Shown in pieces: positions 7,901-57,220 of a stretch of 64,000 nt of DNA. This DNA comes from Auxenochlorella pyrenoidosa (Eukaryota; Chlorophyta; Trebouxiophyceae; Chlorellales; Chlorellaceae), in assembly GCA_001430745.1 (NCBI GenBank), contig KQ482003.1, positions 886,991-950,990 on the forward strand, given 5' to 3'. A program made the translations under genes and the position numbers. The notes beneath the pieces are model-generated. The model saw nothing but the letters and a program-made list of their open reading frames with translations. It did no database searches and had not been told where the DNA came from. How positions within the stretch are numbered: the first letter of the stretch is position 1; each line of letters starts with the position of its first letter.

Positions 7901-10059
7901 CTGTGCGGGGAGTTGCAGGGGCAGGCTCAAACCTTGCAAAGCGAGCACCCTTGGCGTCCACACACGCCCAGCCTGTTGCGGCAGCACCCTGCGCGACCCG
8001 GCGCCCACTCACCGGTAGATGCAGCCGTCGCGCCCGCCGCTGTACACCGTGGAGAAGCTGGGGCTGGCCCACAGGGCCCACACCGAGTCGGTGTGCACTG
8101 CCAGCGTCTGCACGCAGCGCTGCTGCCCCAGGTCCCACAGCCGGATGGTGTGGTCAGAGGACCCGGTCAGCATGAGGCGGCCATCAGTGTCTAGCTGGAG
8201 CGCACTGCAGAAGGACGCGCAGCAGGGAAGGCGAACAGGCTCATCTGGTGGGTGCACAGAATGCCAGCAGCGATGGTCCAGGGTGCAGAAGGGGTCCAGG
8301 GCAAGGCGCCCCCCCACTGCAGCGCTGCTGGGCTCCACAGCCCCTCCCACAGGCTGCTTGTTGGCAAGCTGTGCAGCTCTGGTGCGCACCGGATGTTGTC
8401 GGTGTGCCCCTTGAGCTGCATCACCAGCCGGCCGGAGCGAACATCCATCACGTTTGCTATTGACTGCGCCGGCAGGAAAAGGGCAAGTAGCTGTGAGACA
8501 TATCCCGCCATCAAGAGGCAGGCAGGCTTCACACAGCAACACTGCTGCGGCAAAGCCTCAGCCCCAACAAAGGCGAAATAGAAGAGAAGGGGTGCGCAGA
8601 TCCTGCACCTGAGTGGATCCTGTGGCAACGAGCGTGCCGGCGCCGCTCATGCTGATGGCATACACCGAGTGCTTTGGGACCTCTGCAGCGGAGGCTCCAT
8701 ACTCTTGGTTCTGCGAATGAGAACGCAGGGGACTTGATGCAAATGCTGTCGCAGCGCTGGGGAGAGCATGTGAAGCAGGTGCTGGGTGCACCACCATGCA
8801 CCTTGCGAGAGGAAAGAGGCTTCAATCAGCAGCACTCCAACCTGAAGGCAGCAGCAGCAGACAAGGCAGGGCAGCAACACCTGCAGTGTGGCTGGGCGCA
8901 GCGCCTGTCCAGAGTGGCCGCTCACCGGGACGGTGCCTGACATCACCTGCCGCAGCCCGGCAATGTCCCAGAGCAGCACCTCGCCCTGCAAGCCGCCAGA
9001 AGCCAGCATGCTGCCGGACTGCGAGGCCGCCAGCCCAGTGACGTAGTCGGTGTGCCCGGTGAGGCAGCCCAGCGCAGGGTCTGCCAGCAAGATGGGTGGG
9101 GGAAGGCAGGGTGTTGGAAACTGCGCGTGCACATTGGGGTGCGTAGCGGATGAAAAAGGCAGCCCAGGCTTGGACACTCGTGCTCGCAGACAAGCAAGAT
9201 GTCCGTCTACTCTCATGTGCGGGGGGCCCAGGCAGAGGCTGTGAGAGCTGTCACGAGGCCAAGACATGCCTGCTGTGCTCACCTGGCGAGTCCGGCTGCC
9301 AGACACGCAGCGTCTTGTCGGCGGAGCAGGACACCAGGAACTCGCCGACCAGCGCGAGGTCGTTCACCTGCCCACGCAGGACCGTAAGCAATCAGCAGCT
9401 TGAGTGGAGTGGAAAGAGGTCAATTCGTCTACGACTTTCACAAGGAGATTCTGCCGCACAACACTGTGGGCACGCTTCAAGCAGGCAGGTATAGGCGAGA
9501 CAGGCTGCGTGAGCACAGCAGACAGCACCAGCTGGCGCGGGATAAGGACGCACCCAGTCAATGTGGCCCACGTGGTCGTGCCTCAACGATGCGCGCTCCC
9601 CCGTGATATCCCAGCTGCAACACAGCGGTAGAGTGGCAGTATTGTTGGGCGAGCAGCCAGCTTGCCCCCCCCGATCCCAGGGAAGGCAGGGAGGTGGGAA
9701 GGCTGGTGAGCAGGCTTCCACGGCAGGGTGGGTGTGCCAGTGGAATAAGGAGGCAGCAGGCCGCTGAAGACCTTCCAGGGCCTCACCACTTGATGATGGC
9801 ATCACGTGATCCGGTCCAGAGGTGCTGTTCATCGCTCGACAGGGCCAGGGCATTCACGCCGGCGCAGTGCTGCACAGTGCGGAAAGGCAGCAGTGAGGTT
9901 GCAATCCGGGCCAAGCATTCGGTCGAGCACCGTCCATCAGTGAAGTATCATTCAAGATCCACTCACCCCTGCCCCCTGGGTGCGGCGGAAGAGAAAGGAG
10001 ACGCGACGAGCGCCTTCCCTGGCCGCCGCCGCGCCGCCGCCCCGGCCTGCAGAGGCCAT
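4994..10059 (-). CDS. WDR48: WDR48/UAF1-like WD40 protein
   Basis: UAF1 is the WD40 activator of ubiquitin-specific proteases of the USP1/12/46 group. I place the start at ATG 10057-10059 (MASAGRGGG, then [11 protein letters not shown]). The first intron is removed after 9969 and exon 2 reads [22 protein letters not shown] blades follow in order: [10 protein letters not shown] with HIDW (about 9600-9540), [19 protein letters not shown] (9370-9295), [16 protein letters not shown] (about 9075), [20 protein letters not shown] (8690-8612), LKGHTDNIR (8420-8393), [17 protein letters not shown] (8175-8110) and [12 protein letters not shown] (8050-8014). The C-terminal half has the UAF1-specific pieces: [13 protein letters not shown] (about 6935), [20 protein letters not shown] (about 6640), and the terminal ubiquitin-like SLD region ([16 protein letters not shown]) before the stop at 4994. 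A Q/H-rich and Ala-rich insertion (about 6560-6280) follows the KVNFGEQ segment. Exon edges were read by eye. Confidence 0.88.
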
Positions 10060-15490: not shown

Positions 15491-18236
15491 TCATCGGCAG
15501 GTGGGGAGGCCGAACAACCGCACGTCATCCTGATAGTACGCCGCCAGCGCATCAAAGCAGGCAGAGTGCTGCAGCGCAGGGCAAGGGTGAGCAGGGCTGG
15601 CTCAGCAACAGAGGCCTGCATTATCTGCTCCTCCTGACCCGAGAGTCCCCTACTTAGCATCCAGTTGCTGGCTCAGGCAGACTGCCTTCGACGGCAGCGC
15701 TCGTACGACTCTCAGGGGCCAACCTTCCCCACTGCCCTACCTCGCCCTCGTAATACATCTGGATTGCGCAGTAGCTCTCTGGCGCTTCCAGATGGATGAC
15801 GTGGGGTTTGTCGGCCAGTGTTCTCCGCCGCCTGCAACCAAGGACCAGCAAACGCTCACTGCTCTACTCCTTAACAGAGGTGCAAATAATAGAGATGCAA
15901 AAGCAACGCTCAGTGCAGCTCAAGTCCAATGCCACTGAAAGGTGATTGAAGAATGCAATCCTGCTGTCGCAACCCAGCCAACCCTACCGCTCCCCACCCT
16001 CTTCCCATAGTACACCAAGAACTCACGCGACTGCTGCAATCTCCTTGGACAGCGTGGCACCGCTCCGAGCTGCCGAGCCTGCTGCTGCTGCTGCTGCTGC
16101 TGCTCCTTCTGCTGCTGCTCCTCCTCCTCCGCCTCCTGCTGCTGCTGCTGCTGCTGCCGCCCCTGCTGCGGCTGCTGCTGCAGTGGCTGTTGCATTCTTA
16201 GGAATGCCACGGCAGGCCACATGCACCTTGTTCACGTTTGTGAGCTGCCCCAGCAGGGACTCCACATCAAGCTCCGGCGTGCCAGGAAGCCGCCGTGCAT
16301 TCATCCCCTGCCAGACCTGCGAAGAGCACAGCCCAGAGAAGAGGAAGCTGCTTGAGCACCACAGCAAGACAGCAAAATGTCCCCGCTCCAGGGCAAGGCA
16401 CCCACGAGCCACGTCTCCCAGGCACTTCATCCGCCCTGCCCTGCTCACCTCCTTCATGTCCTCTGCAAGGTTCTCAGTGCGCACCACATAGTCTGCTGCC
16501 CAGTCGCCAGTGGCGGTGACCAGGCAGGGCGCCTGCGGAATGAGGTGGTGCATCGCAAAGCCCTCGCCCTGCTGCCTGCAGAGGAGTAGGAGCCGAGAGG
16601 CCAGAGCCCATGGCGCATGTCAGTGCCCGTGCCGATGGATGGATCCGCGTGTGCAGTGTGCGTGCTTGTGTGCTGGAGCAGAGCAGCTGGTGAAGGGCAC
16701 CGCCGGCACGCGCGCCCCTACAAAGCAGCACAGCCTGCAGGACACTTGCTCAGCTGCCCCTTTGGCCTGGGCATGCCGGGCACCCTCACTTGTTGATCGT
16801 GCACAGCGGGTGCTGGTTGTGCACCAGCGGCAGCAGGTTGGCATCTGCGCACACGCGGTTCCAGCCGCCCACCAGCTCCTTGCAGCCGTGGCGCAGGTAG
16901 CGCGACAGCATGCGGTAGCTGGACACGGCGCGCGCCCAGGGGTTGCGCACCACCGCAAACACAAAGTAGTCGCTGTACATGCGCTGGTACTCCTCCTCCG
17001 AAGCCATCACCTGGGGGTGCCAGGGGAGGAGGCAGGCAGGCAATGAGCAGGCAGGCAGGAGGGGACTTGGCATTGGCAGGGCAGGGCAGGGCAGCCGCAG
17101 GCATGAACAGAGTGCAAGGATACGGGGGTAGGGAGATTAGTGTGTGGAGTGGGTGGGCACAGCGGGAGCTGCACAGGCAGAGGCAGTTCAGGGAGGACAG
17201 TCCCAGCATTGCATGCCGGCGGCATGCCGGCGGCACCCACCTCCAGTGGCTTGAAGCAGGTGGGCTTGTCGGTGGTGGCATTGCCAGTGCATGTGCCCAT
17301 CAGGGTCAGCAGGCTGGTGCTGCCGGTCTTGGGCGCCTTGAGGTACATGGTGCGGTACGCATGGTTGACCAGGATGCGGCAGTACGGGAAGAGCGGCGGG
17401 GGGCGGCCCACGCGTGCTGCAGAAGCGAGCGGAGGTGCATTGGTGCAGGAGGGCATGTTGAGGCTAATGCAGCAACCAGGAGGGGCAATGGGAGGCGCAA
17501 GCGCTGTGCAGGCTGTCGTTGCTGATTCCGCCAGGCGTGAATTGAAGCCAAGTCCCTCGGCATAAATGTCGAGTGCAGTTTGGCGACGCAGATCAAGACC
17601 AGGTAGCAGTCAGTTGCAAAGTGCGGCATTTGCCAGCACAGGTCTGCCTGCCGCTCTCCCAACAATGCCTCCACCTATCTCAGCACCTGTGCATCACTCA
17701 CTCAGCTTGCCGTCGACCAACCACTCCTGCGTGCGCTCCTCTTCTGTGCCAAAGTCGCGCCAGGCAAAGTAGGCCCTGTGCCGCTGCGTGGTGTTGGGCC
17801 CATCCAGCAGGTGCATGGGCAGAGGGCCCGCCTTCTGCACCCGGCCATGCACCGGTGTAGGCCCGGTGGTGGCCACAGTCACGCACTCATCGTGGGTGGC
17901 AAAGTGAGCGTCGGTGGCACCACCGCCGCCCGCCTGCAGCGTCGTGCCGCCGCTGCCAAAGGCGGCAGCACCAGTGCGCCCTCCTGCCGCTGCTGCCGCT
18001 CCGTTCGCTGTCGCTGCTGCCCATGATGCAGCCTCTTCCGCCGTCACGCCTGCTGCAGCGCCAGCTGCCGACCCCGCGCTGATGAGCCGGCGGGCGTGGC
18101 GCCTCTCCCTATGCAGCGGCCTGCCAGGCTCGTGCGTGACAATCACCGCCAGCAGCACGGCAGTGCTCATCGTCGCCAGCCAGCGCAGTCCAGAAGAGAG
18201 GCCGGCCCGGCCTCTCTTCGGCTGCCGAGCCCCCAT
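15491..18236 (-). CDS. Type II membrane carbohydrate sulfotransferase (copy 1)
   Basis: Probable Golgi PAPS-dependent sulfotransferase of the Sulfotransfer_2 type, transferring sulfate to a glycan. The start is ATG 18234-18236. Residues 1-35 carry a basic N-terminus and a hydrophobic anchor (WLATMSTAVLLAVIV), then an Ala-rich stem. The 5'-phosphosulfate loop is KAPKTGSTSLLTLMG (about 17340-17305). The 3'-phosphate motif is FAVVRNPWARAVSSYRML (about 16950-16910). Later conserved pieces are GWNRVCADANLLPLVHNQH (about 16860-16800), YVVRTENLAEDMKE (about 16480-16450) and LDVESLLGQLTNVNKVHVA (about 16275-16220). A long Ala/Gly tract follows. The final exon reads HSACFDALAAYYQDD and stops at 15491-15493. 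It is paralogous to the gene at 39678-41814, sharing anchor, motif order and end. The acceptor cannot be read from the sequence. Confidence 0.82.
16078..16192 (-). repeat. GCN microsatellite encoding poly-Ala/Gly in sulfotransferase 1
   Basis: CTG/CTC triplet runs on the plus strand read as GCN and GGN codons in the sulfotransferase frame. They give a long Ala stretch split by a Gly block between the conserved LTNVNKVHV segment and LSKEIAAVA. The tract is inside coding sequence, because both flanks are in frame. Confidence 0.75.
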
Positions 18237-18537
18237 TTCTGCCTGGCAGGCTGCAGGGGAATGGGGCGAATGTAGAACAATGCAAACCCGGGCACAATGG
18301 CCGAGCTGCCGCCATCTGCCTCACCCGTTGGCGGTTGGCATGCACTGCTGGCACGACCGTCGTATTGCTCATGGCTCCTTTCGATGCAGGCAGCTATGTT
18401 ACACACGCAGGCCCCACAGGGTATCCGAGCAGGGGGCTTGCAGGTTGGAGACACACACAAAGAATGGGAGAGGAATTCGAGGAGACGCCGATGAAATTGA
18501 TCTCGATGTATCAGGAGCGAGTGTGGTGGGCAGATGT
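18237..18537. other. Intergenic region upstream of sulfotransferase 1
   Basis: 301 bp in tandem orientation: promoter and leader of sulfotransferase 1 plus the 3' end of the phosphatase gene. A minus-strand TGTAA occurs at 18399-18403. Nothing else is recognised. Confidence 0.5.
18399..18403 (-). terminator. TGTAA poly(A) signal of phosphatase gene
   Basis: TTACA on the plus strand, 135 bp past the phosphatase stop at 18538. Matches the green-algal polyadenylation signal in the right orientation. Confidence 0.4.
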
Positions 18538-20896
18538 TCAAGCACGCACGATCTGGGCGATGAATTGCCGCACAAACTCGTGCTGCTCATCCGTCTCCGG
18601 GGAGCGGCGGCCGCCTGCAAGCAGAGAGGCGAGGGCGGAAGCCACGTTTACTACCTTGCATCATGCATGCAGTGGCAGACAGCCGCCGTGACAGGCAGGC
18701 CTCACGCATGCAGCTGGCGCAAACTCCAGTGCAATGCAGAATCTGCTCACCATCTTTGCGCGTGTCGAATGAGCGCTGGACCCTGCAAAAACGAAGAGGG
18801 GAACAAAGTGTGTGAAGAGGGGCCTGCAAGAATCAGCCGCAGTGCTGCCTGAAGCACGCCCTGCAAACGCCTGCCACCCTGCAGCCCGCAGGCAAAGACT
18901 CGCCTCTCGAGCGCCTCATCCGCCGACATGCCGTACAGCTGTGCCAGCAGGCAGGCGCCAACGGTGCCCGCGCGTCCGCGCCCGCCCCAGCTGCATTCGC
19001 ACAAGGCAGTTGCACAAAGTGGCAGTTGTATCAGTGCTCATCTCGAACAAGCGAGGCAGCTGACAACCGCAAGGGAGCAGTAGCACGCAAAGATCAGCAT
19101 GTAACTGCAGCGGCAACTTGAGATGGGTACATTCTTGCATATACAGGCGCACGGGTAATTCAAGGCACTGAGCAGACAAGTGGCCAGCCCGGAGCTCACC
19201 AGTGCACATACAGGGTCTCCCCGTTCTCGAGCCGCTGCGCCATGTCTGCCAGCAGCAGCCGCAGCCTGCAGAGGCAGCGAGCAGGCAGGCACTGAGCCTT
19301 CCGGTGGCTTGCTCAGGTGCCCCTGGCATGGGCAGCTGCCAGCGACAAATAGGATTTGCTTTGAAACCCCCCCNNNNNNNNNNNNNNNNNNNNNNNNNNN
19401 NNNNNNNNNNNNNNNNNNNNNNNNNNNNNNNNNNNNNNNNNNNNNNNNNNNNNNNNNNNNNNNNNNNNNNNNNNNNNNNNNNNNNNNNNNNNNNNNNNNN
19501 NNNNNNNNNNNNNNNNNNNNNNNNNNNNNNNNNNNNNNNNNNNNNNNNNNNNNNNNNNNNNNNNNNNNNNNNNNNNNNNNNNNNNNNNNNNNNNNNNNNN
19601 NNNNNNNNNNNNNNNNNNNNNNNNNNNNNNNNNNNNNNNNNNNNNNNNNNNNNNNNNNNNNNNNNNNNNNNNNNNNNNNNNNNNNNNNNNNNNNNNNNNN
19701 NNNNNNNNNNNNNNNNNNNNNNNNNNNNNNNNNNNNNNNNNNNNNNNNNNNNNNNNNNNNNNNNNNNNNNNNNNNNNNNNNNNNNNNNNNNNNNNNNNNN
19801 NNNNNNNNNNNNNNNNNNNNNNNNNNNNNNNNNNNNNNNNNNNNNNNNNNNNNNNNNNNNNNNNNNNNNNNNNNNNNNNNNNNNNNNNNNNNNNNNNNGG
19901 CACGCCCAGGTCCACGATGGGGCTGTGCACAAAGTCCAGCTCGATGCGCTTGCGCTGCTGCCAGGCAGCCGGGCGGCGGCGCGGCGGCAGGAAGCGGTCC
20001 AGGTCGGGGGTGCGCAGCGCGGCAATCTCCTCGATGGAGGGCGGCGGCGACATCGCGGTGGCCAGCAGCGTGGCGGACGCGCGGTACGGCACAAAGCCGT
20101 CCACGCCGCCGATGCGCATGGCCGACTGCTCCGGGATCTCGGCCTGCCAGGGGCAAGGGCCACACCAGGCAGCGCTGGGCGTTCTGCCTTGTCGGCAGCA
20201 CAGCTGCTGGCACCGCAACACAGGCTGGGAAACCCATGTTCCCCAAAACACTGAATTGTGGAGCTCTGCTGACCACCCCTGCTGCGCGGCTCACTGCATG
20301 CCTCACCCCACCTGCAGTGAAATGAACGTGGTGACGCCCGCGGCAATCAGCTGACGAAGCTGCTCCTCCCCCACTTCGCGCGAACGGCAGCGGCTGGGCT
20401 CCACAAAGGGGTAGCGCCCCAGCATGACGCGGCCCGGGATGAGCCAGTTGGCAAAGTCGGTGAATGCACAGGCCGACTCGTAGCCGTCTGCATGTGGGCG
20501 GACGGGGCGACAGCATGCTGCTTGCCTGTGCAGAACCAGCCACTCGCAGCAGGGCAGATCCGAGTGCTTGCACGCGCAGGCTTGAGGCGCGTGGAGGCAG
20601 CAGCACCCTCTTTCCGGCTGCAAGCTCATCGTTTTTACCGAGGCTGCCCAGAAAGCCTCACCATCCAGAGGTGGCAGCTGCGGGAGCGCCGTGGCCTGCG
20701 GAGCAAGCGTTGTTGCCGCTGCCTCTGCAATGCCGCTCCGGCGGCGGCGGCAGGCTGCTGCACGGTGCTGGGCACGGTGCTCTGGAATTGCGGCAGAGCG
20801 GCAGGTGGGCAGGGCCGCTGCCGCTGTCCGCGCCCTTGGCCCCTGTGTCGCGGAGGCGGACACATAGCCGCGCACAACTACCGAAGCGGCCTGCAT
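18538..20896 (-). CDS. Putative plastid-targeted cysteine (tyrosine/dual-specificity) phosphatase, interrupted by assembly gap
   Basis: Start taken at ATG 20894-20896 (MQAASVVVRGYVSA). The first 60 or so residues are rich in Ala, Arg and Ser with almost no acids, as in a plastid transit peptide. After an intron comes DFANWLIPGRVMLGRYPF (20460-20405) and LRQLIAAGVTTFISLQ (about 20360-20310). Next is a segment ending in RKRIELDFVHSPIVDLGV at the gap edge. Beyond the gap, LENGETLYVHC is spliced onto WGGRGRAGTVGACLLAQ (about 19215-18935). This recreates a CX5R phosphatase loop, HC-WGGRG-R-AGT, split by an intron inside the Cys codon. The final exons read VQRSFDTRKD and EHEFVRQFIAQIVRA before the stop at 18538. 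The middle of the domain is missing because 525 bp are N. Substrate unknown; a CDKN3-like fold is the nearest guess. Confidence 0.68.
19374..19898. other. Assembly gap (525 N)
   Basis: A run of N preceded by a poly-C stretch (ccccccc at 19367-19373), inside the phosphatase gene. All open frames across it are artefacts. Confidence 0.99.
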
Positions 20897-41993: not shown

Positions 41994-44162
41994 ATGAGCT
42001 CGCGGGCAGCTGGAGCTGGGCTGCTGCTCCTTGGGTGCTGGCTGCTGCTGCTAGCGGGGCCTAGCTGCACTAGAGCCGCACACCTGCCTGCCGATGTGTC
42101 GGCGGTGCTGGGCCGGCGTGGCGGTGGCGGCGGCGGCGACGTCAGCGCCTTCCTCCTTCGGGCAGGCCGCGGCCTGGAGCTGGGCGGCCGGCGCTACCGC
42201 CTCCACCTGCGCTACACAGCCTGCACCGGTCTGGTCAACCAGCAGTACAGCCACATCGCCGCCTTCACGCTGGCTGCGGCACTGGGTGTCAGCGAGGTGC
42301 ACCTGCCGCCTGCGGCAGTGCGCGACTCCTTTGGCCACAAGTTCAGCATTCACCAGGAGCAGAACCAGATGCAGTGGTTCCCCGCGCGCACCGGCTGTCT
42401 GTTGGATGTGGAGCGGCTGCAGCGCACGTGGGCGGCCCTGGGCATCACGGTGCACGAGGTGCGGGCCGTTGCTTTTTGCAAATTGCAGCGTGCACGCCAC
42501 CGGCCTGCAGGTGCCCAGGGATGGGTTGCCCCTGCTTCTGTGCTGTCATTTTGGGCCGAGAAACCCCATATCCAGGCGTTGAGTAATGGGACGTGCACAT
42601 GCAGGCGGCCTTCGCGCTGCACCAAGACTTACTCCCTCTGGCGCCCCGCTGCAGCCGGACACGCTGCTGCCCTTCCCAGACCTCATGCTCCCCGCGGGCG
42701 CCTTCCAGCTGACCCCCGTGCCCGGCATTGACCCGCGAGCTGTGGTGCGGGTGGATGGAGTCTACCTAGCCGGCATGGACCTGCCACAGCTCGTGGCGCA
42801 CGCCACCAGTGCGGCCGAGGCGCACCTGCGCCGCGTGCACGCCGCCTTCCCGGGCTTGCAGCTGCAGGAGCTCCTGCTGGAGCTGCCCTGCACATTTTTT
42901 TCTCTGCACACCTCCAGGTGGGTGCCGCAAGAGAGGTACAGCAAGAAATTTGGGCGGAGCATGCAGGGCCGGCTCTGCTGAGCCCCCGCAGCTGCATGAA
43001 GAGCAGCGTCATGCGCTCATGATGCTGGGCACTCTTCCTGCTGCCCCCCGCAGCATGCTGCCGCTTGTGAGCCAGGTGGCGGCCACGCTGCACTTCAACC
43101 CTAACCTGGAGTATCTGGCTGACCGCGTAGTATCCTACATAACCCGCGACGGACGGCGACGCTTCAACGGTGTGTGGGCAGAGCAGCACGCCTGAGCAGC
43201 AGGGCGCTTGGGCTGCACCGGCCGAGGATCAAGAAAACAGGAATAGAGTTGAGCATGGCAGTCGCAGGCCAGGTGGCATGCCACCAGCCAGAGGCGGTTG
43301 TGAGGTGCCCATGTGTGTTGCTGCTGTTCGGCCATGCAGGTGCCCACTTGCGGGTGGAGAAGGACGCAGCAGAGTGGTTCATCATCTTGGGAGGGCCCCA
43401 GGTGGTGTGGAACATGTACAGGCAAGCAGAGACTTTCATTCGCGGAAAGCATGGGCTGCCACTGTATGGCTGCTTGCCCCACCAAAACATTACAGGCCCT
43501 AAGTTCTGCCAGCGGGGCCCCTTGCCTGCAGGGAGAAGATGCAGGAGGCCGGGTTTGAGCCCACGCTGCCGCTGTATGTGGCCACGGGACTGCTGTCGTA
43601 TGGAGCGGAGCTTGAGTTTCAGGGAGGGGTCAACATGCTGGTGCAGAGCCACCTGTGCAGCGAGGTGCTGTACAAGGAGCAGTACATGCCCATCTTTGAG
43701 CTGCAGCGTGAGTCTGCAGTTCGGGACAGGGCGGGCAAGCAAGCGGCTGGGGTGTTCTCAGCTGGGAATGGTCCCAACCTGGACTGCAGCCTGAACCAGC
43801 TGCGTGCTTCAAGCTCTGCCCAGTAGGCGCTTTCCTTGTGCTGCGCCTGTTTTGTGGCCTGCAGGCCTGTTGCTCTTGCCTGTGTATTAATGCTTGCTGC
43901 TGCCACATCCCCGCCCCATGCATCATCCGCAGGCCTCAACTCGGAGCAGCTGGCCCTGCTCGACTTCCTCATCCTAGCCCGAGCAGAGAAATACGTGGGC
44001 TTTGGCCCCTCCACCTTTTCCTTCTACCTACGGGAGCACCGCATGCTGCACGGCGTGCCACCAGAGCAGTCGCACTTGGTGAATGCAAGCAAGATTGGCA
44101 CTGATTTCATTTTTTCGTGGTCCGCACAGATAGCGAACCGACAATTGCCAGGGCAGGGCTAG
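41994..44162 (+). CDS. O-fucosyltransferase-like secretory-pathway glycosyltransferase
   Basis: The start is ATG 41994, giving a signal peptide or anchor (SSRAAGAGLLLLGCWLLLLA). Exon 1 carries YRLHLRYTACTGLVNQQYSH, IAAFTLAAALGVSEVHLPPA and RDSFGHKFS, the nucleotide-sugar-binding start typical of algal and plant O-fucosyltransferase-like proteins. Middle exons include DTLLPFPDLMLP (about 42660) and LHFNPNLEYLADRVVSYI (43091-43140). The conserved region AHLRVEKDAAEW (43342-43377) corresponds to the H-L-R-x-E motif. Near the end are LPLYVATGLLSYGAELEFQG (about 43570-43625), LLDFLILARAEKYVGFGPST and FSFYLREHRML (about 43955-44050), the family's C-terminal acceptor-site region. The stop is TAG 44160. 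The sugar donor is inferred as GDP-fucose from family membership only. Confidence 0.75.
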
Positions 44163-44638: not shown

Positions 44639-47600
44639 ATGCGGGAGGAAGATATTCCTGCCGCTTTTCAGCAGCCCAGCTCAGCAGGTGGGCTTCGGGT
44701 GCCGTCGCCTCTCTTCTTTCGCAGCTCAGCACTATGTGCGAGGCGATCGTGCAGTTGGGGTTTGCCGCCGAGGCGCCGTGCCGCCTGCAGCTGCTGCCGC
44801 CGCCACCGCTGCCCGCCAGCCGCCAGCCTTTGCTACCTTGCTGGCCTCCCCATCCCTCCTCTCCGCAAACTATGCCCCCTTGCAGGGCCCACTGAACTGC
44901 CGCTGCGGCTTCTTACGGGGTTCGAGGTGGTGGATGAGAGCGGCGTGGTGCAGCCGCTCACTTCACTGACCCAACAGCCCGGCCTAGCGCTCTCCGGCCA
45001 GCTCGTGCCTGCCCAGGGCAGTGCAGCTGCAGCAGCAGAGCCAGGCCCCAACCTAACCGCTGCACCGCTCATTGACTGGGTGGTGGAGCAGAGCCCTGTG
45101 CCAGGCCAGCCCCCTGCAGTCTGGGCAGTTTCCCAGCGTGCCTGGTACCGCCTGTTGCAGCCGTCAGCACGCTATGCCCCGCTGTTTGAGGCGGCACAGC
45201 ACGCCGCTGGGGCGCAGGTTGAGGTGAGGGCATGCATGGAACGTCGCGATATGGGTCCTGCTTATATCGGCCCTGCTCGGCCAGGCGCCAGTCATGTCGG
45301 CTGTGCGCACCCTCCCCGTCCCAGTGGCTAACCGCTCGCTGTGCCGCTGGTATTTTTTGCCGCTGCAGGCCAGGATGGCAGCGGCACAGCGCCGGGGAGG
45401 CGCAGGCAAGCGTGGGGCCAGCGGCGCCACAGGCGGCCGGTCCAAGCGTGCCAAGGTGGGTGCTGAGTCTCCGTTCTCGCTCTCCGCATAGCGACAGCTA
45501 TGCACCAGACCCTGATCATTGGAATGTTGGCAGGCAGGCACAGGAGCCCTCCATCACCAAGTTTGCACAACACCCTCTCAGCGACTGGCTGAGCCGTGTG
45601 TCTCTGCAACTGCAGGCGTCCCACGGCGCCGGCTCGGGCAAGGTCCGCTTTGCCGGGGCTGCAGGGTCTGCGGCGGCCTCCATGGTCGACCTGGCGGCGT
45701 TTGCTGGCGAATGGGATGCTGTGAGCGATGAGGACATGCCAGACGACTTCCAGCTGTCAGGCAAGGTCATGGGCCTGGGGGTTTTGGCTCTGATTGGTCA
45801 CATTGTTTTGGGGGTGGTCTTGCAAGCCCCACATGTCTTGCATCTTGCGGCATAGCCCAGACTTTGAATGCGGCACGGCAGAGGCAATCCTCCAGTGGTG
45901 GGCCGCACGACTCTGCCTCACTTCCCTCCTGTTCTTGCTGTGCTGCAGATGCAGAGGCCGACCTGCTTGAGGCGAACAACCTGGGGAAGGCGCGGCGCAA
46001 GGCCTGGCAGAAGGCCAAGTACTGGCAGCGGCGCATCGCGGAGGAGGAGCGGCAGCGCGCAGGTGCGCGCTGCGTGCGGGCATCAGGGCCCAGCGTGTGT
46101 GCTGCCTTGGTCGTATGGGCACACACCAAAGGCCTTGTGCATTTGCATCTGTTGAGCCTCTGCCTTGCCCTATGGTGCCTTGAGGTGCAGCGGCTAAGGC
46201 GCGGGCAGCGGCCGACGCGGCAGCGGATGCAGGGCGCGGTCCGCCGCCGGCGCTCACCTCGGGCTTCCGTGTGCCGCCGGCCTGCGTGTCCGACCTGCTG
46301 ATGGTCTGGGAGTTCACTCAGGTGGGCCGTGGTTGGTCTGGGACCGCGTACAGGAATGTGCTTGGTTGTTTTGCATCAGGCTGGGGGTTGAAATTCAGGG
46401 GCAGGAGCCAGCAGGAGGCTTGGGCGCAGTAATTGTATGCAACACTTTCTTGCAACCTGAGCCAGTAGTGCTCTGCTGCGTGCAGGCATTCAGCGACGTG
46501 CTGCAACTGCCACCCTACTCGCTGGTTGCGCTGGAAGCAGCGGTCTGCCCCGGACCTTCCCTGCCCCGCCGCGCTGCACCCGGTGTGCCCATGCTGGGTG
46601 CAGAGGGCGCAGCTGAGAAAGGTGTGCCGGTTGCTGGAGGTGTTCACTTGCAGAGTATGTGTTGCAGATCTGCACAAGAGCTGTGCAAGCGTGCTGATTC
46701 ATGTGATGCCCGGTATGCTCAGCTGCTCTTCCCTGCATGTCATTGCAGGTGAAGTTGCAGCAGGCGACGGCGAGGCGCAGCGAGAAGGCGAGCAGGAGCA
46801 GTGTGAGGAGGAGCAGCAGCACGACAAGCCTGCGCCTGTGGCGCAGCCAAGCTTGGGGCGCAGCGATCAGCAGGAGACCGGGCCGGGGTCGGAACAGCAG
46901 CGCGCAGCGGCAGAAGAGGAAGGAGAGGACGGCCGTGCTGCAGACCAGCAGGAACAGAAAGAGGAGCGGCCGCGGGAGCAGCAGCCAGGCAGCGCTGCCT
47001 CTGCTGAAGTGCAGGGGCAGGAGCCGTCTGCTGAGCAGCAGCAGGCGGAGCTGCCCGCCGAGGAGCGCTCAGCCCAGCAGGATGCAGCGCAGCTGCCGGC
47101 GGAAGCAGAGGAGCAGGCCCCGATGGGGTCCCGGCGGCCGCGGCGCTCCGCAGCCGCCAACTGGATGCGCCACCTGGCTTCAGAGGACTTTATTGTTGAC
47201 GAGCCCCTGCTGAAGCCCCGACGCTCGCAGCAGGTAAAATGTCGCTCTTGTTTGTTGGGAGTGTTGAAGGCGTTTTTTGCGCTCTGGTCGTCACCACTTC
47301 GGTGCGCGATTTGCATATGCCTGGCTTCCTTGGGCTTGCAAACTAAGCCTGCGGGTCAATCCGGGCCATGTCTGCCCTGCTGGCTCTGTCCCGTCTGCAG
47401 AGCGAAGACTCTGAGCAGCCGCTGCGCTTCCGTGTCAGCCTGGGCAGCAGCGGCGCTGCCCAGGCTGCAGCCGCACCGGTCATCAAGCTCAAGCCCAAGG
47501 GCTCTGAGCGCACCGAGCGCTTGCAGCAGAAGTATGGCCTGCCACCAGAGGCGGCTCGGCGGCTGGTGCCCATCGACAGAGACTTCGCTCCCAGCGGGGT

Positions 47601-50600
47601 GCTGCTCCGTGACATCTGCTGCGCGCTGCTGCGCGTGGCGGCGGGGCGCGTCACAGCGGGCGCAGCAGCGGCAGTTGGGGAGCAGCCGCGGGCGGCCAAG
47701 CTGCAGAGCGAGGAGAATGAGGTAAGGGTTTGCGTAAGGGTTGGGTGGGAGCTGCTATGGAGGACTTGGAGCACAACCCACATCCAGCCGGCCCGCCCAA
47801 AGTGTCCGCTCTGGGTAAGACTCCTGCCAGCCCTGCATCCAGGCCGCCGATGTCCAGCAACCCCTTCCGTTGATGCCTCGACTGCTTGGGTGGTGGATGC
47901 CCCCTTGGTGTGCAGAACCCGCTTCCCTGGCCCGAGCGCGTCTGCAACGCGGTGTGGATGTCCCCCGAAGCCGACCTGGACGACCGCACAGTGGCCATCA
48001 AGCTCGGCTACGGCGACTGGCAGGACCTGGCTGCCGAGGAGCGCGTGCGGGTGAGCGCACGTGCCTCTGGATCAATCAAAAGTGTTCCACGCAGTGCCGG
48101 GTTGCTGTCCTTCTGCTGCCATGCCTTTGCCCGCGTTTGGCTCGGGTTTGAGCCGGCTTTGGGTACCCGTGAACCACGTGCATGAGCGGTGCACCCTTGC
48201 TGGCGAGGTGGGCACTTTGTTTGCTGTGCCTTGAGTTCAACCCTTGTGGGTGCTCACTGCCCAGTGGGCAGGGCCTTCTTGAGCACTGCATGTCCCACAC
48301 TTGTCGCGGTGCAGCTGCTGGCGGCGCTGGTGCGCGTGGCGCTGGCTTCTGAGCCGATGCAGCATGAGCTCAACAACCGCATCGAGGCGCTGGCAGCGGC
48401 CCGGCGGGGCCGAGACGGCAAGGACGGCGGCGGGCCTGGCGACGAGGACTCTGATGTCGAGGCCGACCTGCAGCGGCTGCCGCAGGTGGCGGCATCAGGC
48501 CAGGCAACCCCTTCTGTGTCGGTCCAGGCAGGCGCCGCAACGACCGGCAGTGAGGTCCCCAGCAGGGCCGGCTCCGAGGCGCCGTCTGCCTCGGCGGCTG
48601 CAGCGCGCAGCGCCGAGCAGCAGCAGTCTGGGGAGCTGCCAGCGCGCGCAGTGAGTGCAGCCGACTGGGCTGCCTGGCTGCAGCAGCGGCGGCTGGGGCT
48701 GCGGCGGCCGCTCGGCCTTGACCTGCGGGGGCGGCGCTACTGGTGCTTTGGCCGCCAGGCTGGCGCTTTCAGGGTCTATGTGGAGGACAGTGAGGGCCAG
48801 GCCTGGGGCTGGTACGAAGGCAAGTTGCCAGAGGCGTTTGATGTGAACTTTGGAGTTCACAATGCTCCCATGCCCTCCGCTGCGGTGGGGATGGCCACTT
48901 CCTGGACGTATGGATTGGCAGCCCAAAGCTGATTGAAAAGGGCATGCCCCGCAGATGTGACCATCACCATGCTTTGTCCATGTCTGCAGGCGAGCAGCTG
49001 ACCAAACTGTGCAGCTGGGTGGAGCAGGCGAACGTAGCGGTGGAGGCGCCACTGCTGCGCGCGCTGCGCACGATGCCGCTGCCCCGCTCCAGCGCCCGCC
49101 ACCAGCGCCCCCTGGGGGGCAGCGAGTTGGAAGCACTTCGGTCGGATGGCTACCGCACCCTGGTGAGAGGCTGCCTCTCTGCCTTGCTGCCTTGCCGGTT
49201 GAGCTGGTCCTGCAGTTGCCCGCGTGGCAGCGTGCATGCTGCCATTTTGCTGAGGCATGTGTCCGGACCTAGCATTTCTGGCGCGGGTGCTCCCCTTGGA
49301 GGAATCACAGCAGACAGCCTTGCTGAGATCACTTTGTGCACGTGGTCTGCACTTGGTGCAGGTGACCCCCTTCCTGCGCGGCGAGTGGAACACCAGCAAG
49401 ACGGGCCTGCTGGCCCCCGCTGAGCAGCGCATCCTGCTGGCCGTGGATGCGCTGCTGGGCGCTGTCCCCGTCTGGTTCAAGGCAAGCTCAGTGGGTCACC
49501 CCTGGCCAAACTTGGAGGGTTGCCTTCTTGTTTGCTCGTTTTGTGTACCTGTCTTCCTGCCCTCCGCGATTGCGCTGCTGCCTGCCTTTTCGCCATCTGT
49601 GCAGGGCCCTGAGGCACTGCAACAGCATCTGGCCATCTGCGAGGCTGCGCAGAGCGGCAACCTTGCAGACATGGGCCGCGCGTTGCTGTCTGTCGAGCAG
49701 CTGCTGGCGGGAGAGGGGCGCCTTCCAGAGGAGTGGCTGGATGTTTGGCAGCTTCCTTGGAGCAGGTGGGCCAACTCTGGGTGGTTGCCCACTGCCTGTC
49801 ATGTGCAGTGCACATGTTTGTATGTGGAGGACAGCCTTGCAATGGGTCTCCCCCTGCATTTGCAGCCATCTGCTCACAGCTCTTGGCCTGTGCAATGTCG
49901 TGTGCAGGGCTGTCTCCAGCTGCGGCGACATTCGCGACATGCTTCTGTACACTGCAGCACTGCAGCAGCACGTGCGAGCGTCGCCAGACCTGCTCCCACG
50001 CCAGGTGCGCCTGGGGACTGGCAGGCCCTTAAGTCGACACTTCTTGCCAGCAGCAGTTTGAGGGGCATGGATCTTGCATTCTGTAATGAAATAAGCATCG
50101 CCCATTGTGACCTCTGCAGGCCTTCCTCAAGTATGCCATCGAGGCGCAGTGCCCGCTCTTCTTTCCCTACCCGGGCGAGAATGTGGCTGTGATGCGCGCC
50201 GGCCTGCTGCGCCACATCGACAGGCAAGCAAACCAGCTGACCAGCTTGGCCTGGCGGGCACAGTGCCGCCTTTCTTCTACCCACCCAAGGCGCTCTGAGC
50301 TTCATCTTGCTTTCTTTTGTGTCTGTTACGACCCGTGCTGCAGGTACATGCAGTTGCTTGGCCTGGGTCAAACTGGGAACCTGCCCGCACATCAGGAGCC
50401 GCAGGCGCCTTCTGAACTGGCAGAGCAGCAGCAGGAGGCAGGGCGTGGACAAGTGGAGCCAAGCGAAGCAGCGGCAGGCGAGCAGGCTGTCAAGACGGAG
50501 ATGGATGGTGAGCGGCAGCAGCAGCAGCGGCAGCAGCAGCAGCTGCAGCAGCAGCCACCTGCCCATGCAGTAGGGCAGGTGCCTGCCCAGCCTGCTGCGT

Positions 50601-53600
50601 CAGCTCCTGCCCCTGGGCGCAACGTTTTGTCAGTGTTTGGCATTGCTGGCGCACAGGCAGATGCCATGCCGGCAGCGAGCACGCAGACCGGTCCGTCTCA
50701 GACTGGCACCGGCAGCGAGGCTGACGGCGGCAGCATGCAGGATGGGGATGACGATGCCGGCAGCAGTGGCCAGCAGCAGCAGCAGCAGTCGGCACCCATG
50801 CCGCCGCATGGGGCAGTGCAGCTGGCGCCTCGAGTGCAGGATGGCAAGAAGGCCGCGCTGCAGGCACACTGGGAGGAGTTGCGGCAACGGGCGCAGGTGC
50901 GGATGCAAAGCTGAACCAGGTGCCTGCTGGGCCGCTGAGTCAGAAACCGCGCTGCGCCCACCAATTTGTTGTTGGGTGTTCATTGGCTAGGGACAAAGTT
51001 GATCAAAGCCTGTCTGCGCTTGCCCTGCAGGCACTGCGGCCAGTGGAGCGCTACGTTGTGCGCAGGTGGGAATTGCTTTTCCTGGTCCCTTTGCTTTGTT
51101 GCGGTGGTGGAGCGGCACCATTGGGTTTGTTGTGATGTGAGGGCGCGCTTCTGTAAAGTTGACCATACATATCCTGCAGCATCTCCGGCGGGTGCTGCTG
51201 CCAGTGTGTCATGCTGGCACCCCCTGAAAACTCTGCCCCACTGCCACCCCCTTGCAGCGTGGTGTACCGCCGCCACCTGGCGGACGACGCCGACCTCGAG
51301 CACAGCGAGGCAGACGAGATGGCACGTCGCTGGCCCGTGGCCTGGCTCATCCTGCGCCCGGCCAAGTATGGCCCGCGCCACCAGCTGCCCACACAGGTGG
51401 GGAAAGCTGCCATGGCTGCACGAGTGTTGCAGGTTGGCTGCTGGTATGTGGTGCCGCCCTGCACTCTTGCCCTCGGTGCATTTGCTCTTTGCTCAGCCCC
51501 GGTAACTTGCTTGCCTCACATTTTGGCGCCCATGATGCGTCTACAAAAGTAAAAGGCTGCTTCCTTCGGTTCTCTGTTTTGCAGGACCTTGTCCTCCCAG
51601 TGGCCATTGACAACACCCAGCCCGAGTATGCCATCAAGGCGGAGACGTACGCGGAGCGCATGCGCGTGCGCTGGCAGTCCGGCGACCGCTTCCGCATGTT
51701 CTTCGGCGGCCAGGTGTCGCGCAAGACCCACAAGCGGGTCAAGACAGGTGCGACAGCTGTGCGCATCGGGCAGGTTCTGCTGTGCAGTCGCCGTGGGGGC
51801 ACTCATTGGCCAGGTGCTTTCCAAGTCCTTTCAGGAATGCACCCAGTTCTAAATACAGCATGTGCAGGGCACAGCAGCCAACTCATCAGCAATTCAGTGC
51901 GCGATGCATGCAAGAAGGCAGGCACCCTTTGTGCTGCTGCGCCGCAGGCGGCGTGTGGTACAAGGGCACGGTGGTGGACCTGAAGCAGGCGCAGCCGGGC
52001 AAGGACGCGCCGCCGGAGGAGAAGGAGCGCTACGACCCGTGGGAGAGCCTGGTGGTGCACTGGGACAGAGGTGGGTGGCCGGGGCAGAGGCAGGTCTGTG
52101 CAGGGGCTGCAGGGCAGCAATTCGAACAGGCATTCCATGTGCAGCTCGAGGTGGCAGCGGGATGAAACTGTGAGCTGCTGCATGTGACTCCATGCCTGCG
52201 CTTTTTCTTGGTTCAGCCCTGCCCGATGAGAACGAGACTGTCAGCCCCTGGGAGCTTGAGATTGACCCTGATGAGGAGCGGCGGCGAGCCGAGGAGGCGC
52301 GGCGGCAGGTGCAGGCGGCAGCGCGCGCGCAGCGCGCACGACAGAGCTCGCGCAGGTGAGCTGGCGTGCTGCGCCATCCGGCGCTGGTGTTCAAGGGAAG
52401 CAAGATTTTGGTAACTTCAGTTTGGCTGCTGTGGATCAAGGAAAGATCAAGAACCCTGCCAAGGAGGGCGTCTTGTTGTTGTCATCTGCAGGAACGCGCC
52501 CGATGGCGAGGCCAGCGAAGCTACAGAGGGCCGAGCCGAGATGCTGGTCCGGCAGGCGGAGCGCGCGCAGCAGCTGCTCAGCTACCACCTGCAGGCAAGG
52601 GGCCGGCGGCAAGCCCAACTCTTTGCGACTGGCAGCTGACGTGGATTCCCACCAACCTGCCCTGTGTGCTTTCCTTGCTTTGCATTGAACTAAAGCCCAC
52701 GATTGCCTTGCTCACACACTGGTTGCCGTCCGTCTCCGTGCAGCCGGGAGCGGAGGAGGAGCAGGAGTTCAACGAGGCCGTCTACGGGCAGCCCCTGCAG
52801 CTGCAGCAGCACCTTGTGCAGCCCACGCTGCCTGCGGCCATGCCGCACGTGCAGCAGGAGCCGCAGCGGCGACACCACGGACATGCGCCCTCCTCAGGCC
52901 CCGCTGGCCAGATCCAGCCGCTCAACCCGGGGCAGGAGGTGCCGCCGGTGAGCGAGGGGCAGCAAACTGCCCATGCTGCATTGTTGGCTCTGCCTTTGCA
53001 GGCCGGGCCTGCTTTGCCTGCTTGTCAAGTATGCTACAGTCTGCGGCCCGGCCTCCTGGCGCTCCACTTTTATCACTTTATGCCTGTGCTGCCCTGCAGG
53101 AGGTGCTGGACATGCTGCGCCCGCTGAGCCCGGACGCCTTCCTTGTCATGGTGAGGGGGCACCCGACTTGCACACAGGGAGGAGCGCAGGTGGACGGCAT
53201 GTGGGAGCCCCTGATGCCACGCCTTTGTTTGCACACTTCCTTGCGGCTATGTTGCAGATCACAAACTTCTACCGCGGCCTGAAGGGCAAGTTCAAGGTGC
53301 CAACCTTTGCGCACAAGGAGCTAGACCTGTATGCGGTGAGGGCAGTGTGCTGTCGTTGATGCTCGCCACTGCTGGGAGGCGCCTGGCAAGCAGGGGGCTT
53401 GACCGCCACTTCTCTGCCTCAAGCAGGTTGGCAAGGCGGAAAGCGGTGGTCGCCATGGTTGCAGGCGTGCAGGCGCTTCGAGTCCTGCATGGTTCACTTT
53501 CCCTGCACGGGGTCCCCTGTATGCTGCTGTGAAAACTGATGTACTCCCATGCGTGCTCGTGCCGCCCTATCTGTGGCAGGCTTTCTGGGCGGTGATGGAG

Positions 53601-55845
53601 CGCGGTGGCTACGAGACAGTCACGGCCGGCAAGCAGTGGAAGGAGATCTGCCGCTGCCTGCCGGGCGTGGACCTCACCGGCCAGACATCCGCCTCCTACA
53701 ACAGTGAGGTCCCGGGCTGGGTGGCAGCACACAGGTGCACTTGTTGTTAGATGCCTATGGTGGTCCCCCATCTGCTGACATTGCCAGGCTGGCACCAGTG
53801 TGTACACACGCCAGGCTCCAGGCATCAAGCATCTGGCGTTTCCCCCTGCTGCCACTCTATCTCTCCTCTCCCCTGCAGTGCGCCTCAACTATGAGCGCTG
53901 CCTGCTGGACTTTGAGTCGTACCTGGCCTGCGGGCAGGTGAGGATGGAGAGCATGTGGAATTTGGCTGCACGCAGCACGCTGGCGTGTGTGCGTGGCGGG
54001 GTCTGAACAGTCCGTTCCCTCGTTTCACAGCCGCCTGTTTGCGTGCCTTCTTCTTCTCTCTGAGACACCGTGGTATGCCTGCCACCACCCTGTGCAGTAT
54101 GAGCGCGACCTGGCGGCCGGCTGCGCCCCCGAAAGCGAGTTCCTCACAGACCCCGCCCGCACCAAGTTCACCCTGCCGGGCATCGACTACAGGCAAGCCA
54201 GGCGGCTGCGCAGGCCGAACGTGCGGTGCTGCAGCCTGTTGGACCGCCTGTCGCGTGTGCGTCCCGCGGGACGGGCTCCTCTCTCAATGCTTCTGGCTGC
54301 GGCTGACAACTCCTGTGGAACAGTGCAGGCTGCCCACCTGCGCCAGCACTGCACGCCCCCTCCCTCCATTGCCTTATCCACCAACCCTGCCATGCATGTC
54401 CACCTACCCTGGCTGCAGCACTCCCGCGCCCACTGGCCGAGGGGCCGCCAAGCCCACCAGCAGCCAGGGCAGTGACCTGCTGCCGGGGGGCAGCCGCCCA
54501 CAGCGCTCCACCCGCGGCAGCAGCCGTCTCAAGCAGAAGGCCACAGCAGCAGCCGAGGCTTCAGCTACACAGGACGACATGCTGGCGGTGAGTCGCAAGC
54601 TGGTGGGCCACGGTGCACAGTAGCTGGCAGGCTTGGCTGGAACGAAGGCATTTCATGCTTGATGGTGCTGTAGGCAGTCGTCTTGTGCCCAACGTTCGAG
54701 CCTCTCCCTTGCCCACCTTTCTTATCCCACAGATGATCGCTGCGGCCTTCCCTGTTCCACCCTCTGGCGAAGAGGGCGCAGCAGCCCTGCCTGCGCTGCC
54801 AGTGGTGGACGCCGCTGGCGGGGCAGCCTTTGGCGGCACCTGGGAGGGCATCCTGCCGCCTGGCAACGTGGGCCAGCTGCTCAAGGCGCTGGGCCAACTA
54901 GCAGTGGGCCGCACCGTCGAGCGGTTCTGGGCAGAGGAGGGTGCGTACGGTTCCTTGGGTGCGGTGGGCCAACAGCCCAGCGGGTGCGTGCATGCACGGA
55001 TCTTTCGCCTGCGCAGCCTGCGGAAATCTGCTGTAAGCAGTCCTCCTCACATTGTTCTTGCCCATGCCGCTGCCCCAGGATCCTCTCCCGGTGCTGCTCC
55101 CTCACCCCCAGCAGGCGGCTGGTGGCGGGCCCTGGTCTCAGACTTCAATGGAGAGTCGGGCGAGCACCAGCTGACCTACAATGCCGGGCAGGATGACGAG
55201 TCGTATGAGTGGGCAGACCTCGGGGAGCTCGCCAACGAGGAGCTCAGGTGGGCTTGGAGACAGCTTTTGGGCATGCCTCAAGCCTGGACGGCGGCGTGCG
55301 AGCTGCCCCGGCAGGTGCAAGCTCGCTCCCATGCCTCGCTTGCCGCCCTGACCTGCAGGGACGCGACCGCCAGCGCCGCCATGCCTCGGATGGAGGACCT
55401 GCCGCCGCTGCCATTGCCTCTGGAGGGCTGGCAGCCGCCAGCAGATGCAGGCGAGGCAGGAGCAGCGGAGGGCAGCGGAGCAGCAGGGCCGGCTTCAGCA
55501 GCTGAGCCCGTGCTCCCTGTGGTGGGCGGTGCTGCTGATGCTGCTGCAGGAGCAAGCCCACCGCTTGGTGGCTTCATGGGCCTGCTGGCAGACTCGCAGC
55601 CAGATGGGGCCGGGGCCGCCCAAGCACAACAGCAGCAGCAACAGCATGCGCCAGGTGCGGCAGGCAGCGAACAGCTGCCGCTTGCCCAGGGCAACGAGCA
55701 AGACGCCCAAGCGACACTTACAGTGGAGGAGTTGCAAGCCATGCTGCCCGCGCCGCCGCCGCTGCCACCGGAAGTGAAGGCGGAAGAAGCAGTGGCAGCA
55801 ACACCGGCGGAGGAGCAGCAGGCAGCCAAGGTTGAAGAACCATAG
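44639..55845 (+). CDS. Giant multidomain chromatin protein: RFTS, DDT, WHIM, BRWD/Tudor-like, ARID, EMSY-like Tudor
   Basis: About 33 exons and roughly 2,000 residues by my reading. The start is ATG 44639 (MREEDIPAAFQ). Order of modules: a DNMT1-type replication-foci (RFTS) region at 44887-45455 (LPLRLLTGFEVVDESGVVQP, WYRLLQPSARYAPLFEAAQ); first half of a DDT domain at 46260-46560 (VSDLLMVWEFTQAFSDVLQL, PPYSLVALEAAV); and a long acidic Gln/Glu insertion (46750-47230). Next is the second DDT half at 47590-47640 (GVLLRDICCALLRV). WHIM-like segments follow: LGYGDWQDLAAEERVRLLAA (48002-48320), LDLRGRRYWCFGRQAGAF (48717-48770) and LCSWVEQANVAVEAPLLRAL (about 49010). A BRWD/PHIP-type Tudor-like region is at 51640-52275 (WQSGDRFRMFFGG, GGVWYKGTVVDL, ETVSPWELEID). 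ARID lies at 53100-53940 (FKVPTFAHKELDLYAAFWAV, GGYETVTAGKQWKEI). An EMSY/plant-type Tudor is at 54895-55247 (WWRALVSDFNGESGEHQLTY). The stop is TAG 55843. This suggests an ISWI-associated chromatin targeting subunit in the nucleus. A split into two genes remains possible, but I found no internal stop or start. Confidence 0.75.
50506..50555 (+). repeat. CAG-rich poly-Gln coding tract
   Basis: CAGCAG units encode an interrupted Gln run (QQQQRQQQQLQQQ) inside the linker exon 50345-50895 of the chromatin gene. Similar shorter Gln runs occur at 50770-50790 and 55628-55646 in the same gene. Confidence 0.8.
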
Positions 55846-56137: not shown

Positions 56138-57220
56138 ATGGAGCTCTGCCGCTCCGCCTGGGCGCCTGCTAGGCACTGCGATGTCTCGATTGTTAGAGAT
56201 CTCTGCATTAGCCGCTGCCGGAGAAGAGTTGCAAGCCCGCTCGTAGCCAGCAGCGCAGCTCGCGATGCGGGGGGCGGCTCACAAACGCAGCAACATGGCG
56301 TGAGCAGGACAGCAAGCACGGCCCGAAATGCTGCCAGCAGTAGTGCCGCCACTCCCGCCGCCACTCTGAGCTCACAGCCGCCCATCCGGCGTGCGACGCC
56401 CTCCGACCTGCCGCATCTCTGCAAGCTCGAACAGCTGACTGCAGAGGGCGCCACGTGGAGTGACAAACAGATAGAGGTAGGGCCAGGGTTTGCTACAACG
56501 AGGGCATCACCCTGCATTTCGAGCTGTTCCCATTTGCTCAAAGCGCAGCTACGACTTTGTTCCCTGCCATGCAGGCAGAGCTGTCACGGGAGCGTGCCAC
56601 GGTGCTTGTGGTGGACCAGGGGGCTGGCGCGGTAGGCTGGGCGGTGGGCTGGGCGGTGCCCGGCGAGCTGCACATCATGAACATTGCTGTCCACCCAGAC
56701 CACCGGCGGCGAGGGCATGCCCGCGCCCTGCTGGCGGCACTTATCGAGCTGCATAGGTGGGCCCAGCTGATGGTCAAAGCAGGGTTTGTGGGTTAGGGAA
56801 GGTCCCGACACCTTGATTTTATGCCTACGTGGCCGCGCCGCTTGCCCACAGCTGTGGCGTGCGCGTTCCTTCACGGCACCAGCCCTGTCCCCTCCGCAGG
56901 GGCGCTGAGTCGGCGCTGCTGGAGGTGCGGGTGTCCAATGAGCCAGCGCGCAGCTTGTATCGCTCGATGGGCTTCCAGCATGTGGGCTTGCGGCGAAAGT
57001 ACTACCAGGTGGGGTGTTGCGCCAAGCGGGCCAACACAATGCTGCCTTTGCTGCTGTGCTCGGCGGGAATGCAGTCGGACGTAGTTCTTCCATCGCTGCC
57101 TGGCGCTTCCAGATCAGCGCTCCTACTGGCCAGGCCGCCCGCATGTGTTTGCAGGATGGAGAAGATGCCGCCCTCATGACGTTGCAGCTGGAGGCAGGGC
57201 CGGCCACTAGCTCAGCGTGA
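56138..57220 (+). CDS. RimI-like GNAT N-acetyltransferase, probably plastid-targeted
   Basis: The start is ATG 56138 (MELCRSAWAPARHCDVS). The first 75 residues or so are rich in Arg, Ser and Ala with few acids, suggesting a plastid transit peptide. The GNAT fold starts at IRRATPSDLPHLCKLEQL (about 56380-56440). The acetyl-CoA loop is NIAVHPDHRRRGHARALLAA (56680-56740), with R-R-x-G-x-A in place. RVSNEPARSLYRSMGFQHVG (about 56928-56988) and RRKYYQDGEDAALMTL complete the RimI-like domain. Exons are about 56138-56476, 56575-56755, 56900-57008 and 57155-57220. Family members acetylate protein N-termini (and some lysines) in plastids of plants. It converges on the HIR3-like gene, 152 bp away. Confidence 0.85.

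Follow-up and report, generated by a model that had tools for sequence, protein, structure and literature searches.

The window analysed here, 64,000 nucleotides of the green alga Auxenochlorella pyrenoidosa (contig KQ482003.1, positions 886,991 to 950,990), carries at 44639-55845 on the plus strand what is, judged from its sequence, a single gene encoding one very large chromatin protein. The predicted chain combines an RFTS, a DDT domain split by a long insert, a WHIM block, an ancillary domain (AD) as found in auxin response factors (ARF) and PHIP, an ARID and a C-terminal Tudor domain. Since DDT-WHIM proteins commonly dock on ISWI, an accessory role held by ACF1/BAZ, Itc1 and the plant RLT/DDR proteins, we read it as probably serving an ISWI nucleosome-spacing remodeller as its large accessory subunit, with targeting modules of its own. 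At least 16 relatives (P0001-P0016) were found by protein searches, and because those in several green algae share the predicted combination, it is best seen as an old, conserved green-algal design rather than a one-off fusion.

The modules are arranged as follows (window coordinates, amino acid (aa) positions and strand).

44894..45205, aa 20-123, within exon 2, plus strand: RFTS (DNMT1-RFD), Pfam PF12047, E 1e-7, 32.5 bits against a cut-off of 22
46283..46548, aa 276-309, plus strand: first part of DDT, helices 1-2, Pfam PF02791, E 1.1e-7, profile positions 2-35 of 58
46558..47592, aa 313-559, plus strand: insert inside DDT, 247 aa, 19% Asp+Glu, from an alignment of 17 proteins
47593..47634, aa 560-573, plus strand: third helix of DDT, SGVLLRDICCALLR, from the joined DDT score
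47701..48392, aa 596-673, plus strand: WHIM1-like region, aligned to relatives
48705..49027, aa 778-828, plus strand: WSD / WHIM2 (D-TOX E), Pfam PF15613, E 9e-8, 32.6 bits against a cut-off of 25.4
49028..50377, about aa 829-1045, plus strand: conserved post-WHIM block without a Pfam name
51031..52272, aa 1219-1390, plus strand: ARF/PHIP ancillary-domain (double-Tudor-like) region
53130..53937, aa 1531-1624, plus strand: ARID DNA-binding domain, Pfam PF01388 at aa 1532-1617, E 6.1e-14
54865..55247, aa 1757-1826, plus strand: C-terminal Tudor, profile match to 7de9 (RDM15 Tudor), E 1e-6

RFTS, DDT, WSD and ARID all exceed the curated Pfam cut-offs in the protein itself, the scan having been made on a 1999-aa version in which the exon 32 acceptor lies 36 nt upstream of the final one. 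This bears out the claim of a first-pass annotation of this DNA that RFTS, DDT and ARID occur in one protein, and its claim of a DDT-WHIM module stands for DDT and WSD/WHIM2; WHIM1 was matched by Pfam only in relatives (10 of 15, e.g. P0010 at 689-724, E 5.6e-8). The RFTS of exon 2 alone retrieved DNMT1 chains from the PDB with a whole-sequence E of 5.7e-5 (best single stretch, independent E-value 0.033), and a 15-member family profile retrieved them at E about 1e-16. The post-WHIM block, possibly akin to what follows WHIM2 in BAZ/RLT proteins, is 27-95% identical to the 16 relatives over aa 835-1045. Pfam found no PHD finger, BAH, C5-methyltransferase, WD40, B3, PB1 or bromodomain in the whole protein, and the bromodomain regions of seven relatives found no counterpart in the window (best E 0.23), which rules out a hidden bromodomain there.

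The first part of the DDT domain scored 32.3 bits in the Pfam scan of the protein, against a cut-off of 22. When the first part was joined directly to SGVLLRDICCALLR, the score rose from 37.3 to 47.2 bits, and with a control segment joined instead it was 36.7 bits (one control, in this protein only). Likewise, joining the two parts raised the scores of P0010 from 15.6 to 24.3, of P0014 from 26.2 to 32.3 and of P0015 from 39.1 to 51.0 bits. That is, all four proteins tested improved, and the match was lengthened to profile position 54-55. An insert of 30-326 aa is present at the same place in all 17 aligned proteins (this one and the 16 relatives), measuring 32 aa in the Bryopsis protein, 30 aa in P0016 and 89-326 aa in the remaining 15, and helix 3 is kept beyond it in every one of the 17. 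We regard the region as a DDT domain whose loop before helix 3 has expanded. The conservation of the helices, the WSD and the post-WHIM block, together with the retention of helix 3 past the insert, points to a DDT fold still in use.

Further downstream, the first-pass annotation had proposed a BRWD/Tudor-like module, of which the Tudor-like ancillary domain is upheld; it scores better as ARF_AD (aa 1291-1387, E 1.2e-5, 25.5 bits, under the curated cut-off of 27) than as BRWD_AD (E 0.015, 15.5 bits against a cut-off of 40). A profile of this region gave five matches in the PDB, all of them ARF chains. The predicted model of the region had a predicted local distance difference test (pLDDT) value of 66.9 and gave no Foldseek match under 1e-3, ribosomal-protein entries scoring near the ARF entries and PHIP structures being absent among the matches listed; as the model is poor, only the sequence matches are relied on for the identity of the AD.

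The C-terminal domain of the protein, labelled an EMSY-like Tudor in the first-pass annotation, has no Pfam match, and is assigned by profile and predicted structure as a Tudor domain; among solved structures the RDM15 Tudor of Arabidopsis comes nearest. An AlphaFold2 model of the equivalent domain of P0001 (pLDDT 89.8) ranked 7de9 first in Foldseek (E 3.4e-3; no match under 1e-3). The cage of RDM15 is formed by W616, Y623 and Y641 (PMC8184781); among 12 aligned relatives, the first of these positions holds W in 11, the second W, F or Y in all, and the third Y in 11, P0016 being without the first and third. These counts are our reading of an alignment that left out P0002 (truncated), P0006 (near P0005), and P0007 and P0015 (no Tudor aligned). 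With the aromatic cage of RDM15 thus kept, methyl-lysine binding by the C-terminal Tudor is plausible.

The gene model consists of 33 exons that splice in frame without an internal stop into 1987 aa.

Exons 1-11, plus strand: 44639-44687, 44886-45223, 45369-45455, 45616-45760, 45949-46062, 46191-46321, 46486-46621, 46749-47233, 47401-47721, 47916-48050, 48315-48819
Exons 12-22, plus strand: 48990-49162, 49362-49481, 49605-49765, 49908-50004, 50120-50223, 50344-50896, 51031-51065, 51258-51396, 51585-51747, 51948-52070, 52217-52355
Exons 23-33, plus strand: 52492-52594, 52744-52947, 53100-53150, 53258-53335, 53580-53703, 53879-53937, 54098-54192, 54419-54587, 54733-54940, 55115-55247, 55359-55845

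The first annotation is confirmed in its start (44639), stop (55845), strand and single open frame after splicing. Exon by exon, the model aligns to P0001, an annotated protein of Micractinium tetrahymenae. The start of exon 32 at 55115 was fixed by comparison with P0001, since the alternative acceptor 36 nt upstream puts 12 extra residues into the conserved Tudor. In a three-way alignment of the protein with P0001 and P0002 (Micractinium sp. CCAP 211/92), all 33 exons align with P0001 at least partly, at 67-100% identity per exon, and 29 of the 32 splice junctions are ungapped against it, the gapped ones being 1, 7 and 22. Between the protein and P0001, 1574 of 1839 aligned residues are identical. 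Exon 8 (46749-47233), which is of low complexity and lies inside the DDT domain, has 27 of its 162 residues aligned in P0001 and 159 in P0002. The 32 introns are 107-264 bp each, with 26 GT donors and 6 GC donors, the latter making up about 19% of the introns of this gene. As to the surroundings, the upstream gene is taken to end with an open reading frame that stops at 44162, about 480 bp before the start, and has no Pfam match; the downstream neighbour at 56464-56793 encodes a GNAT acetyltransferase (Acetyltransf_1, E 4.6e-10). Elsewhere in the window, positions 18001-20000 have a G+C content of 46%, against 58-66% in the remaining 2-kb steps, and a search for tandem repeats at 17500-20500 found none.

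Eight of the 16 relatives come from two Micractinium, Myrmecia, Symbiochloris, Coccomyxa, Apatococcus, Bryopsis and Scenedesmus, and the other eight are metagenome or EukProt entries; each search scored about 7,970-7,990 candidates, so that the numbers of relatives are lower bounds. Five proteins matching only in the bromodomain (P0017-P0021) were left out of the family. According to precomputed Pfam lists, RFTS, DDT/WSD and ARID occur in one chain in 12 of the 16, the exceptions being P0002 (without ARID), P0009 and P0015 (without RFTS) and P0016 (without DDT/WSD). Among 15 relatives (P0002 omitted as truncated; E <= 0.01, not always above the curated cut-off), Pfam matched ARID in all 15, ARF_AD and WSD in 14 each, RFD in 13, DDT in 12, WHIM1 in 10, a bromodomain in 7 and BRWD_AD in 5. 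The order of modules is the same in other trebouxiophytes, in Bryopsis and, in reduced form, in Scenedesmus. An ortholog search, as proposed along with the first-pass annotation, has thus found relatives in several green algae, Coccomyxa included. The seven bromodomains are N-terminal, and the present protein has none. In a FastTree tree the bromodomain-bearing P0008 nests among proteins without one, which makes loss of the bromodomain a simpler reading than gain; the N-termini of P0003-P0007 may be incomplete, so that these five are not scorable for it. A search from P0015 returned only P0015 among the matches listed, NCBIfam held no family for P0010 and P0014, and viral sequences yielded 32 pattern stretches and no relative.

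The same genome (51.6 Mb in 65 contigs) was examined for candidate partners. Exons of an ISWI-class ATPase, with the block AEPGPPYITGDHLVENAG, lie on contig C2 (1707549-1710541) and are 56-89% identical to the Arabidopsis ISWI letters used as query. Searches with SLIDE and HAND gave no match in any genome searched and so do not show absence; the loss of the 3' part of the C2 gene in a run of Ns may explain their failure. Absence of ISWI, considered after the SLIDE, HAND and C-terminal searches, is excluded by the ATPase half found beside this N run. On contig C26 (226000-235999, minus strand) lies a DNMT1-like gene with its own RFTS, a BAH-like stretch and, in our reading of the sequence, methyltransferase motifs on split exons; it also enters Ns. 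A lack of any DNA methylase, as a null result with PF00145 might have implied (controls matched in 10 genomes), is ruled out by these motifs downstream of the RFTS. SRA-domain exons are present as well, as are three further ARID places, one of which resembles a KDM5 demethylase as we read it. Profile searches of the genome miss domains split over exons (the DDT and ARID of the window gene itself were not matched), so these counts are lower bounds.

Two alternatives to a single gene of old composite design were weighed. One is that two or more neighbouring genes, for a DDT-WHIM part and an AD-ARID-Tudor part, were wrongly joined, as might be suspected from P0002, which ends after the AD region without ARID and Tudor, and from the fact that the model is a prediction from sequence. 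P0002 has a tail resembling a read-through of intron 22 and is for this reason taken to be a shortened prediction. Against a wrong joining, P0001 is continuous across the 33 exons, the order of modules is the same in predictions from other lineages, and the introns between modules are not longer than the others, compared with the gap of about 480 bp to the upstream gene. Moreover, P0008 (1850 aa) takes up 5.55 kb of coding sequence, and its contig has 7,117 bases, which leaves little space for introns or separate genes. We reject the two-gene explanation on the exon-by-exon match to P0001 and consider a wrong joining extremely improbable. The other alternative is a recent fusion, private to A. 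pyrenoidosa, of a plant-like RLT with ARID5, to which the separate DDT proteins and ARID5 that work with Arabidopsis ISWI (PMC10776871, PMC13361950) lend some appeal. However, the distant relatives, including Bryopsis and the reduced Scenedesmus protein, have the same module order, which contradicts a private recent fusion, and Pfam found no PHD finger in the protein; such an origin is hardly credible. Of the original interpretation, then, two points have held: RFTS, DDT-WHIM, AD/Tudor-like, ARID and Tudor modules lie in a single polypeptide, and the genome encodes an ISWI-class ATPase. The natural fusion of RLT with ARID5 stays a conjecture. As the architecture is common to distant relatives, an old composite family would be at least as good a description.

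If the protein is an ISWI subunit, it would grip the ISWI ATPase and linker DNA with its split DDT and WHIM block, and the other modules, among them the PHIP/ARF-type Tudor-like domain, would target it: the ARID through DNA, the C-terminal Tudor through methyl-lysine, and the RFTS through ubiquitylated H3, the ligand class of the DNMT1 RFTS, or an internal partner. Both ISWI binding and the reading of marks are what we infer from the modules. Several observations weigh against this role. The ISWI gene on C2 (within 1704500-1714499) is legible up to the first part of its second helicase lobe and then passes into Ns, which leaves HAND-SANT-SLIDE, the part binding DDT, out of sight. A second DDT match lies on contig C23 (2036000-2045999), and about 1.2 kb beyond it comes a PHD finger (E 3.7e-8), the two perhaps forming one PTM/BPTF-like gene; the present protein is therefore not the sole candidate ISWI partner. 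Among relatives, DDT stays under its cut-off of 22 in P0014 (19.2) and P0012 (19.6), WSD under 25.4 in P0008 (22.8) and P0015 (21.6), and P0016 has no Pfam match to either. Finally, unlike in RDM15, where the pair Asp643/Asp645 is tied to monomethyl-lysine selectivity, these positions are acidic in none of the 12 aligned relatives at either place, and H3K4me1 specificity is thus not expected of the C-terminal Tudor. Instead, the protein could act outside ISWI complexes as a multivalent reader of chromatin, either PHIP/BRWD-like or SWI/SNF-associated, its DDT-WHIM having lost the binding to ISWI. ARID and bromodomain are typical of SWI/SNF subunits. An AD is typical of PHIP/BRWD (PMC11685440), the DDT has a long interruption and scores low in some relatives, and the DDT-PHD locus on C23 could serve ISWI. 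Such a reader is nevertheless unlikely in our view, given that the DDT helices, WSD and post-WHIM block remain conserved and that no aligned protein has lost helix 3 beyond the insert.

As a putative ISWI subunit, the protein shares with the known accessory proteins (ACF1/BAZ, Itc1, plant RLT, DDR) the order of the DDT and WHIM series (WSD matched in the protein itself, WHIM1 in relatives) and the presence of an ISWI-class ATPase in the genome; it differs in the long insert splitting the DDT, in having RFTS, AD/Tudor-like, ARID and Tudor modules in the same chain, and in lacking PHD and bromodomain. It resembles DNMT1, of which the RFTS is known as a hallmark, in this domain by sequence, but has neither BAH nor methyltransferase, and the separate DNMT1-like gene of the genome has its own RFTS. 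The double-Tudor (CryptoTudor) of PHIP/BRWD and the DD-AD of ARF contain a homologous ancillary domain, the ARF AD having been traced to PHIP (PMC11685440); unlike PHIP/BRWD, the present protein has no WD40 propeller and no C-terminal bromodomains, and unlike an ARF it has no B3 and no PB1, only the ARF_AD under cut-off. Arabidopsis ARID5, an ISWI component, is similar in its ARID but pairs it with an H3K4me3-reading PHD finger (PMC13361950), which is missing here. Mutte et al. 2018 described a chlorophyte protein with an AD flanked by ARID (PMC5873896), which from its description is very likely of the same family; RFTS, DDT-WHIM, Tudor or a link to ISWI are not mentioned in the available text of that paper. 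In the literature searched (titles and abstract openings, with subscription journals mostly outside the scope), no algal protein was found described as joining RFTS to DDT or ARID. The AD-ARID pairing in chlorophytes is already known (PMC5873896), and what appears new is the combination of RFTS with a split DDT-WHIM, and hence the ISWI reading.

Solely from the homology of the RFTS, one may hypothesize a link of the protein to replication or DNA methylation. Taken further, which we do with considerable doubt, an algal ISWI subunit could read UHRF1-type ubiquitylated H3 via a DNMT1-like RFTS, so that one kind of reader would bring both the spacing remodeller and the maintenance methyltransferase to the same freshly replicated chromatin. 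The AD-ARID half would then keep alive an early use, unrelated to auxin, of the domain from which the ARF ancillary domain arose. ISWI remodellers of animals and land plants divide their targeting functions among interchangeable subunits. With DDT-WHIM, RFTS, ARID and Tudor-type readers predicted in one chain, a shared recruitment of nucleosome spacing and methylation maintenance would become testable in small unicellular algae, and the family may provide a chlorophyte setting in which to view the PHIP-derived ancillary domain, which was later to join auxin response factors.

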